Shown piece after piece: positions 31,448 through 33,776 of a stretch of 43,373 bases of DNA. The DNA lies in assembly GCA_016873215.1 (NCBI GenBank), contig VGXU01000018.1, positions 1 through 43,373 of the forward strand, in the 5' to 3' direction. The position numbers and the translations under genes are program-made. Origin of the DNA: Planctomycetota bacterium. GTDB lineage: Bacteria > Planctomycetota > Phycisphaerae > Sedimentisphaerales > Anaerohalosphaeraceae. The notes below the pieces were generated by a model. It worked only from the letters and a program-made list of their open reading frames with translations, ran no database searches and had not been told where the DNA came from. Position 1 is the first letter of the stretch. The number at the start of each line of letters is the position of its first letter.

Positions 31448-32443
31448 TTAAAAGCCTATCGGCGGTTGGAATTTTTGGGGTGGGACGATTACTTTTTTGA
31501 CAAGATCAACAACGCTTTCAACATTGTATTTTTTCATAACAACTGACCGGTGCACCTCGACGGTGCGAATTGAACGGCAAAGCTTTTTGGCGATTTGCTT
31601 GTTTGTGAGACCCTGCATAATCAAATCGAGCACCTGCTTTTCAATCTCCGTAAGCGGCTGCTGCGGCAGCAGACGAAATGTGCAGCATCGCATGTCCTTG
31701 CCTTTAAAGCGAATTTTCCTGACCTGAACTTCGCAGGGAAAAATGGTGCCGTCTTTTTTAATACCAAAGCTCAGGTCTGTCCCGCAAAAACCCTCATCGT
31801 TAAGTCGGATGACGCGCTGCCTGTCCTGTGGGGCAACGAGTTTATACTGTTCCTTGCCGACAAGTTCCTCGACGCTGTAGCCGAAAAAGGATGCAAAGGG
31901 TTCGTTGATCAGTTGGATTATTTCGTCGGAAATCAGGGCTATCGGTTCAGCGCTCATTTTAATAATTTGTTCAATACACTCGTTCGCTTCGACGAGTTTC
32001 AGATCAGCGTGTTGTTCTTCTGAAAATTCAAAAGCCATAATCATCACCTGTCGAGGCGTATCCTTTTGCGGACTCAACGGCCAAAAATAATAATAGAACC
32101 GGTGGATTTTGCTCATCATTTTATCTGGATCGGTAAAGTAAAGCCTCTTTTCCTCAGTAAGGGTCTGTCTGACCTTTTCCATATAGTATTTGGCAGCATC
32201 CGGCGAAAGAAGTGCGTTGATGCTTTTGCCGGCCATTTCTTCGGGGGTTGACTTGAAATACGCCGCGGCACTGGGGCTGATGTATTCAAATATACCCTCC
32301 TCGTTTAAGCAGAACAAAGGCATTTCAGACTTTTTGGACAGATGGGACACGTCTAACTGGGCCAAGGAACTGTCCTTCTGCGTATTCTTATCGATTTGTT
32401 TTTTTTCTACCTGCATAATCCTTCCGCAGCCTGGTTTAGCCAA
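31448..32443 (-). CDS. PAS-PAS-LuxR transcriptional regulator
   Basis: A 331-residue cytoplasmic regulator. PAS 1 (about residues 38-145, MPLFCLNEEGIFEYISPSA...) and PAS 2 (about 160-255, AEPIALISDEIIQLINEP, then GIKKDGTIFPCEVQ) are followed by a GerE/LuxR helix-turn-helix (LTEIEKQVLDLIMQGLTNKQ, then SIRTVEVHRSVVMKKY). It has no receiver or kinase domain, so the PAS domains probably sense a ligand or redox signal directly. The TTG at 32443 has GAGGTG 5 nt upstream; the ATG at 32416 with GGAAGG is an alternative. A 20-bp box almost identical to one before the neighbouring PEP-CTERM gene lies upstream, suggesting autoregulation. Confidence 0.85.
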   Translation of the reverse strand: MAKPGCGRIMQVEKKQIDKNTQKDSSLAQLDVSHLSKKSEMPLFCLNEEGIFEYISPSAAAYFKSTPEEMAGKSINALLSPDAAKYYMEKVRQTLTEEKRLYFTDPDKMMSKIHRFYYYFWPLSPQKDTPRQVMIMAFEFSEEQHADLKLVEANECIEQIIKMSAEPIALISDEIIQLINEPFASFFGYSVEELVGKEQYKLVAPQDRQRVIRLNDEGFCGTDLSFGIKKDGTIFPCEVQVRKIRFKGKDMRCCTFRLLPQQPLTEIEKQVLDLIMQGLTNKQIAKKLCRSIRTVEVHRSVVMKKYNVESVVDLVKKVIVPPQKFQPPIGF

Positions 32444-32629: not shown

Positions 32630-32708
32630 ATTGGAAACTAAACATAGATACCGGAATTAGATAATCCCCATTGTTTCATTATGAAGTTATCATCTAAACG
32701 AAACGGGT

Positions 32709-32863
32709 TCAGACATGCTCTGTAGAAAACCTGTGTTTTGGAACCCCGAAGGGGTCAAATAAAATAGCCGGGGTTGGAAACCCCCGGAAAGAATGGCTTC
32801 CTTCCCATTTTTTGAGCCCCGAAGGGGCGGCACATGTTCAGCTTTTCTACAGAGCAGGTCAGA
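32709..32863. repeat. 155-bp composite inverted-repeat element
   Basis: Outer arms at 32709-32729 and 32843-32863 match in inverted orientation over 21 bp with two mismatches; the core TGCTCTGTAGAAAA is perfect over 14 bp. Inside lie CCCCGAAGGGG (32744-32754), CCGGGGTT/AACCCCCGG (32768-32787) and GCCCCGAAGGGGC (32816-32828). It has no ORF. It looks like a miniature element or REP-type doublet. Confidence 0.75.
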
Positions 32864-32917
32864 CACTCTTTTTGCCCATTCCCGCTTCATTTCCCTCGTC
32901 GCGTCGTAAGACTTCCC

Positions 32918-32965: not shown

Positions 32966-33733
32966 CTACCGGCCTGCCACGTCAATTCCTTTCTTTCGCA
33001 AATAGGCCTTGAGCGCGGGAATTGAAATGATATTAAAATGAAATACGGATGCCGCCAGCAGGATTGTGGCGCCCGCCTGCACGGCATCGTAAAAATGTTC
33101 CAGCGTCCCCGCCCCTCCAGAAGCGACGATTTGAGCGGATGTCGCTTTGGCCATCGCCCGAATAATCGGCAGGTCATAGCCTGTCCTGGCTCCGTCGCCG
33201 GCCTTGCTTGTGGGAAGAATAACGGGAACCCCATATCCATCCACCCGCTTTGCCCATTCGACGGCATCATGTCCCGTTGCGGTGCGTCCGCCGTCGATAT
33301 ACACCTCATAACCCGAAGGCATGGCTGGATTCTGGTCCACGTCGATAGCGACGGTAATCTTCCCAGGCCCGAATTCTTTGACCATCTCGGCAATAACCTT
33401 TGGCTTGCGAAATGCGGCGCTGCTGGTTGATATCTTATCCGCACCCGCCTCCAACACCGCCGCCGCCGTCGCCACATCACAGATGCCGCCGCCGACCGTA
33501 AACGGTACCGTCGCCGCTTTGGCTGTCTTGCGTACTACATCCAGCATCGTTTTGCGTTTCTCGACCGTCGCTGTAATGTCTAAAAGCGCCAGTTCGTCCG
33601 CCCCGGCCCGGCAATATGCCGCCGCACATTCAACGGGGTCGCCCGCGTCATGAATATCCACAAAATGAACCCCCTTGACCACGCGACCGTTCTGCATGTC
33701 CAGACAAGGCATAATACGTATTTGTCCCGCCAT
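32966..33733 (-). CDS. hisF: imidazole glycerol phosphate synthase cyclase subunit
   Basis: A 255-residue TIM barrel that, with HisH, closes the imidazole ring in histidine synthesis and releases AICAR. Catalytic Asp in IMPCLDMQNGRVVKG and Asp in TVAIDVDQNP are present. Phosphate-binding loops are TVGGGICD with STSSAAF, and IVASGGAGTLEHFYDAV. The usual SMDRDGTKxGYD loop is altered to SKAGDGARTGYD, keeping the second Asp and Gly. AAAGGG precedes the ATG at 33733. It stands alone: no other his genes are nearby, as in many planctomycetes. hisF is the best call because the N-terminal and ring-closing motifs fit, but the altered loop could point to a divergent subfamily. Confidence 0.88.
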   Translation of the reverse strand: MAGQIRIMPCLDMQNGRVVKGVHFVDIHDAGDPVECAAAYCRAGADELALLDITATVEKRKTMLDVVRKTAKAATVPFTVGGGICDVATAAAVLEAGADKISTSSAAFRKPKVIAEMVKEFGPGKITVAIDVDQNPAMPSGYEVYIDGGRTATGHDAVEWAKRVDGYGVPVILPTSKAGDGARTGYDLPIIRAMAKATSAQIVASGGAGTLEHFYDAVQAGATILLAASVFHFNIISIPALKAYLRKKGIDVAGR

Positions 33734-33776
33734 CGTTTTCCCTTTCAAGTATTGGTGCCTGCTTTCGCTTTCCCTT

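Follow-up and report, generated by a model that had tools for sequence, protein, structure and literature searches.

Intergenic palindromic repeats beside a Y1 transposase gene are a property that the locus described here has in common with REPs, BIMEs and REPINs and their RAYTs (PMC2817692, PMC3116915; statements on papers given by PMC number refer to the accessible part of each text). In TIRtrons/TIRYT, a Y1 gene lies between long inverted repeats, several of which carry GGGGWSAS, and the repeats also occur alone (Di Nocera et al. 2013, PMC3733652). TnpA-Y1 subclass 1.2 has the motif Y---Q--HH, is given without a REP in the accessible table of PMC6006769, and is found mostly in Cyanobacteria and Bacteroidetes. 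For Y1 class 3 (Planctomycetes, Acidobacteria, Proteobacteria) and subclass 2.6, the same source reports "atypical secondary structures" beside the genes, identified by manual inspection. Unusual hairpins beside Y1 genes are already known as a kind of arrangement; the pairing of Acido-Lenti-1 with subclass 1.2 is not, as far as the accessible parts of these sources go.

Rfam files RF01687 (Acido-Lenti-1) as an sRNA. Copies near Tannerella protease genes were suggested, without a test, to be regulatory (Tannerella/Porphyromonas study, 2026, PMC13298647), and a Vibrio study lists Acido-Lenti-1 copies. The element analysed here is very probably a 141-bp IS5-type MITE with REP-like cargo (Acido-Lenti-1) and a TIRtron-type Y1 repeat as its target.

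Structure and neighbours of the element

The window (the whole stretch of DNA analysed, 43,373 nt) belongs to a draft assembly of 2.69 Mb in 123 contigs (G000). A preliminary description of the letters had reported a nested palindromic element at 32709-32863 with 21-bp outer inverted repeats. The arms are real, being 25 nt long (32709-32733 and 32839-32863) and 88% complementary; however, they are not the ends. The outermost 7 nt of each arm are target duplication, outside the element proper, which spans 32716-32856 (141 bp) and has perfect 14-bp inverted ends. Because the 9-bp target duplication is near-palindromic, the arms seemed longer than the true 14-bp ends. The 14-nt core TGCTCTGTAGAAAA is identical on both sides, and these two are its only mismatch-free matches in the window. 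The features of the site are as follows.

31448..32443, minus strand: PAS-LuxR regulator gene, neighbour (Pfam PAS domains, GerE)
32707..32715: left target-site duplication, GTTCAGACA, 8/9 identical to the right one
32716..32729, plus strand: left terminal inverted repeat, TGCTCTGTAGAAAA; the IS5-type element L154 has the same sequence at its ends
32742..32787, minus strand: hairpin B, linker and hairpin A1, matching Rfam RF01687 (Acido-Lenti-1) at 33.0 bits against a gathering threshold of 37
32744..32754: hairpin A1, CCCCGAAGGGG palindrome
about 32768..32787: hairpin B (central), CCGGGGTTGGAAACCCCCGG
32816-32838, minus strand: partial RF01687 match at hairpin A2, 16.7 bits, E 0.18
32817..32827: hairpin A2, CCCCGAAGGGG palindrome
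32843..32856, minus strand: right terminal inverted repeat, perfect 14-bp partner of the left end
32857..32865: right target-site duplication, GGTCAGACA
32857..32906, plus strand: remainder of the target repeat hit by the MITE; with the left flank it aligns to the MITE-free copy on contig C104, 55/58
32966..33748, minus strand: hisF, neighbour (Pfam His_biosynth, E 1.3e-67)

Both CCCCGAAGGGG palindromes and the central hairpin were recovered as first described, and Pfam supported the identities of the PAS-LuxR gene and hisF, between which the element lies. The claim that the element contains no ORF also held: none of at least 100 aa was found overlapping 32709-32863. Folding was better than in shuffled sequence for both RNA (z -5.9) and DNA (z -5.6), with 0/200 shuffles as good in each case. 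GTAG within 32709-32863 is confined to the terminal inverted repeats, and GTAG/GTGG is absent at the hairpin foot. In contrast to REPs, BIMEs and REPINs (PMC2817692, PMC3116915), the hairpins here lack a GTAG/GTGG foot and form a three-hairpin unit.

Downstream of hisF, the minus strand has two terminator-like matches that overlap (32787-32768), as would be the case if the hairpin array ended or regulated transcription of hisF and the PAS-LuxR gene and had been retained for that function. However, shuffled sequences average 0.7 such sites (sd 0.8) against the 2 observed, and similar sequence is present at eight other places in the genome. We regard a retained regulatory role as very unlikely; the element probably does nothing essential at this site.

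Copies, target duplication and an IS5-type partner

Nine similar copies, that of the window included, were found in the host genome (91-100% identity over most of the query; the C45 copy is incomplete). The eight others are 91-99% identical over the matched part, and there is a tail of more diverged copies besides. An exact search of this genome for the 14-mer end gave 18 matches; the reversed control gave 0. On C20, a short form of 68 bp is bounded by a perfect duplication, TATCTAATT. Among 161 genomes of the order, the exact two-end pattern was present in 5, with six such elements in the host genome, and the same pattern read backwards had zero matches. A single-copy chance palindrome was rejected in view of the nine copies and the unmatched reversed pattern.

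Elements with the same or near-same ends and hairpins were present in G001, G015 and G029 (host's family) and in G036 (other family). The cargo may have been captured independently in different genomes. By eye, the cargo of the G036 MITE is closer to the Y1-flanking unit of G036 itself than to the window cargo. MITEs with the same or near-same ends and quite different palindromic cargo (GTCATT...GAATCTC-type) occur in other genera (L164:761-893 and L165:930-1058 in G017; L156:1008-1158 in G053).

The target duplication was compared at 23 loci, which yielded 18 element rows; L163, L053, L010 and L011 had no end pair within the set limits, and L005 was left out as a duplicate, though it is a distinct copy whose duplication is 9/9 by reading. 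Mean flank identity across the 18 elements was 0.80 at a duplication length of 9, versus 0.12-0.41 at lengths 4-8 and 10-13; shifted flank controls (35 comparisons) gave 0.13-0.31. At least 7 of 9 flank bases matched in 13/18 rows. The remaining five rows were L077 (0), L170 (4), L067 (6), and L162 and L156 (5 each). For L162:971-1110 and L156:1008-1158, from genomes of other families, a duplication of 8 bp fits better than 9. A 9-bp duplication is an IS903-like length.

An autonomous partner was found in the relative G009. This 1006-bp element (L154:1139-2144) has the same ends as the MITE and is flanked on either side by GGTCAGACC, and its DDE transposase scored 148.4 bits with the NCBIfam IS5 model (NF033579, IS5_2; cut-off 140). 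A relative in G014 (60% identical) scored 139.3 bits, just under 140, with the right end degenerate. In G029 (L171), the right end of such an IS is arranged head to tail with one GGTCAGACA and a MITE. The IS5-type transposase frame is not closed by a stop within the IS and continues past the right end for 32 or 43 codons into the flank (L154:1139-2243; L170:1313-2448).

Since a relative carries a same-ended 1006-bp element with an IS5-family transposase, we assign the window element to the IS5-type MITEs. It is short and non-coding, and has conserved dispersed ends, a fixed-length duplication and ends common to an autonomous IS5-family element. The preliminary description had suggested a miniature transposable element, and had named further same-ended copies and a flanking duplication as checks; both are present, the arms are conserved between copies, and the suggestion stands. 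The likeness to IS5-family IS and MITEs (NF033579, IS5_2) extends to a partner transposase above cut-off, terminal inverted repeats, a size of about 1 kb and a 9-bp duplication. Unlike them, the window MITE has no transposase, carries REP-like cargo and targets the ends of Y1 units; a search of its own assembly (G000, 123 contigs) for the IS5-type transposase gave 0 matches at E ≤ 1e-20. As this search found no such transposase in the assembly, any current mobility of the MITE is putative, and the family may be stranded there.

Mobilisation by a REP-associated transposase had been offered as another route. A RAYT (Y1) transposase would then move the whole 155-bp element, outer arms included, as a REP doublet (REPIN). 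The element does fold as one long hairpin, and one of the two Y1 genes in the genome (on C1 and C11) is flanked by such a hairpin unit. However, the 14-bp ends are directly abutted by the 9-bp duplication, which is perfect in L002, L003, L006, L111, L054, L070 and L154, and the same ends and target are found in a DDE element. Moreover, the units at the C11 gene and at its named relatives lack these ends (by eye), and in G017 the cargo of same-ended MITEs is quite different. To our knowledge, 9-bp duplications are not expected from single-strand Y1 transposition. The ends and the 9-bp duplication are of the IS5-family DDE type. Movement of the whole element by a RAYT is extremely unlikely, and was rejected on the 9-bp duplications and the DDE partner. 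Mobilisation of the inner unit alone by a Y1 enzyme is a possible candidate route.

The landing site

GGTCAG or CTGACC was present in the duplication of 7/8 full-length copies of the host genome, the exception being C34. The target was usually GGTCAGACA, the terminal repeat of the Y1-transposase unit on C1. The Y1 gene of this unit (226 aa) lies between 28-nt inverted repeats that are 89% complementary and have GGTCAGACACGC on both sides. It matched the NCBIfam REP-associated tyrosine transposase model with E 3.3e-14 and 53 bits, below the cut-off of 80. The C1 unit is of putative TIRtron type, with a Y1 gene between long inverted repeats (PMC3733652). It differs from TIRtrons as described in that the repeats carry CGGGTCAG, one base off the TIRtron motif GGGGWSAS, and in that the repeat serves as landing site of another element. 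Flanking inverted repeats at 20 other Y1 loci, from relatives, include GGGGTCAGACCCC (L283) and GGGGTCAGACACC (L299), and exact GGGGWSAS was found in the inverted repeat on both sides at 5/20 (L283, L291, L294, L299, L301). Di Nocera et al. 2013 gave arrangements of this kind the name TIRtrons (PMC3733652). All 20 loci serve as controls below. A group II intron match (RF00029, 42.5 bits) lies near the Y1 gene at L294:52-126 (G031:C153).

A MITE-free copy of the target repeat was found on C104. The joined flanks aligned to it over 55/58 bases for the window, 97/111 for L005, 94/103 for L008 and 48/55 for L002; alignments were short or weak for L003 (21/24), L004 (11/12), L006 (37/46) and L007 (39/46). 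Both orientations of the MITE relative to the repeat were seen (L001 and L002 versus L005 and L008), so at least some insertions were independent. In L303:1-240 (G000:C104), the first ~109 bases, which we take to be a piece of 16S rRNA, are followed by the target repeat and then by what is presumably an HNH-like gene. An Rfam search of L303 at E ≤ 0.01 gave no matches. The other end of the contig is protein-coding in appearance. C104 is possibly a chimeric contig.

A literature search on MITE, IS5 family, REP sequences and insertion found no paper. ISPpu9, an IS110 element, offers a parallel. There too, a Y1-linked repeat, in that case REP sequences, is the landing site of a transposable element (PMC8450116). 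ISPpu9 is not of IS5 type, whereas a MITE and a repeat of TIRtron type are involved here.

Acido-Lenti-1 and Y1 genes of subclass 1.2 type

Hairpins A1, B and A2 lie between the MITE ends. The minus-strand B-linker-A1 segment matched RF01687 with 33.0 bits (E 6.9e-6 in 401 nt), short of the gathering threshold of 37, and an Rfam scan of the window at gathering level gave no match. The sister copies on C29, C34, C36:21876, C44 and C45 each scored 42.7 bits. Hairpin B, the linker and hairpin A1 of the cargo thus correspond to RF01687 (Weinberg et al. 2010, PMC2864571); unlike the family as filed (sRNA), the motif is here part of a three-hairpin repeat that both surrounds a Y1 gene and occurs within a MITE. 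The host genome has 38 RF01687 matches. At E ≤ 0.001, matches were present in 34/59 genomes searched, 26 of those 34 being above the cut-off (stricter Infernal filters were used for the 59 genomes, and counts were taken per genome). Stem covariation was strong: outer B pairs were standard in 157/165 cases, whereas 1000 shuffles averaged 116 and did not exceed 131. The set comprised 39 sequences (the window and 38 chosen by length, with no fixed rule, from 61 matches); six without the CTA anchor were dropped and 33 counted. Three-hairpin units with no evident IS5 ends are dispersed in other genomes of the family (match regions of L057, L066 and L080, by eye).

The Y1 gene on C11 encodes 150 aa with the motifs DHIH and YIENQQEHH, and A-B-A units lie immediately 5' of its start. 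The inner hairpins of the window element are the same kind of unit, and the REP-like content proposed in the preliminary description, together with the RAYT-like gene it called for, was found in the host genome. In its length and in YIENQQEHH, which fits Y---Q--HH, the C11 gene matches subclass 1.2 (PMC6006769). The motif was present at 35/38 loci, the C11 gene among them, and C11-type genes are here putatively assigned to subclass 1.2 by the Y motif and length only. They differ from the subclass, as described in the accessible part of PMC6006769, in having flanking hairpin units and in occurring also in Acidobacteria, Planctomyces and Lentisphaeria MAGs. They also differ from class 3 of that source (Y----Q motif, CnGA foot) in having Y---Q--HH.

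Genes of the C11 type were found in eight named MAG contigs (Blastocatellia, Planctomyces, Balneolaceae, Lentisphaeria, Sphingobacteriia, Bacteroidaceae, Bacteroidia, Acidobacteria). By eye, hairpin units lie upstream in these contigs, often with inverted ones downstream; L216 and L218 are least clear. At gathering level, RF01687 was found among the eight at L213 only, with two matches. A covariance-model search (E ≤ 0.05) was then evaluated at 33 loci with a 1.2-type gene, namely 30 loci (of 44 matches) and 3/8 of the named ones; L214-L218 were scanned at gathering level (no match) and read by eye. RF01687 lay within 300 bp of the gene at 22/33 loci. The other 11/33 had no match within this distance at E ≤ 0.05, and several of them have similar hairpins by eye. 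At 20 Y1 loci of other kinds, all hand-picked from RF01687-bearing genomes and including L302, also a weak match to the 1.2-type query, the count was 0/20. The 1.2-type gene of L229 (G054:C8) has tRNA genes and AGCTCC-type repeats in its vicinity, and no match to RF01687 was found there at E ≤ 0.05.

Match density was 4.9 per kb at 0-100 bp from 1.2-type genes versus 0.04 per kb beyond 1 kb. The nearest upstream match was on the opposite strand, 51-82 bp away, at 14 of the 33 loci, and the nearest downstream match was on the same strand, 50-80 bp away, at 15. Exceptions in orientation were L213 (same strand, 40 bp upstream) and L222, L224 and L233 (opposite strand nearest downstream); at L212, the sole match lay 253 bp downstream. 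Per genome, motif and gene were found together in 26, motif only in 8, gene only in 2 and neither in 23 (Fisher p 1.6e-7, which is not for independent samples because the genomes are related).

Acido-Lenti-1 could alternatively be a genuine trans-acting sRNA that is carried by mobile elements and adjoins transposase genes by chance, perhaps regulating the transposase. The Rfam type is sRNA and the covariation is strong, though a DNA or an RNA hairpin would both show it. However, the gene has copies on either side, mostly inverted and nearly constant in spacing, as for end-recognition sites, and the 38 matches in one genome and the carriage of the unit as MITE cargo also speak against an sRNA. 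We consider an sRNA of this kind unlikely.

Copies flank the transposase gene at 22/33 loci versus 0/20 controls, as for REP-like units in the wider sense. Because Acido-Lenti-1 stands mostly 50-82 bp from 1.2-type Y1 genes, in inverted pairs, and had no match at the 20 other Y1 loci, we conclude that this family, filed as an sRNA, is best read as a REP-like unit of a transposase subclass listed without a REP (in the accessible part of PMC6006769). In the literature accessible here, no paper was found that joins Acido-Lenti-1 to a Y1 transposase.

We propose the following mechanism. An IS5-family DDE transposase would cut and join the 14-bp MITE ends in trans, staggering the target by 9 bp, the length of the observed duplication. 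The preferred target, observed as GGTCAGACA/C, would be the terminal repeat of a TIRtron-type Y1 unit. The cargo appears to be one complete A1-B-A2 unit of the kind that flanks HUH/Y1 genes with the 1.2 motif, mostly inverted. Acido-Lenti-1 would not be a free-standing sRNA but would serve, like a REP, as a DNA recognition unit, its hairpins being recognised by the Y1 protein as single-stranded DNA. The predicted result is a nesting of three mobile systems, with the REP-like unit innermost, the IS5-type ends around it and the TIRtron-type repeat outermost. A further proposal is tentative and, in our judgment, more doubtful: that Acido-Lenti-1 is the DNA recognition unit of HUH subclass 1.2 and that the window element is doubly mobile (by its IS5-type ends or by Y1 copying via the cargo), landing in the repeats of a second Y1 family, so that three systems share the intergenic space.

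An IS5-type MITE that repeatedly lands in the terminal repeats of another element is described here. On the reading of Acido-Lenti-1 as a REP-like unit, there is now a candidate recognition unit for a subclass listed without a REP, and a role open to testing for an Rfam sRNA family whose function is unclear. If this is true, Acido-Lenti-1 annotations elsewhere, for example near the Tannerella protease genes (PMC13298647), would be mobile repeats.
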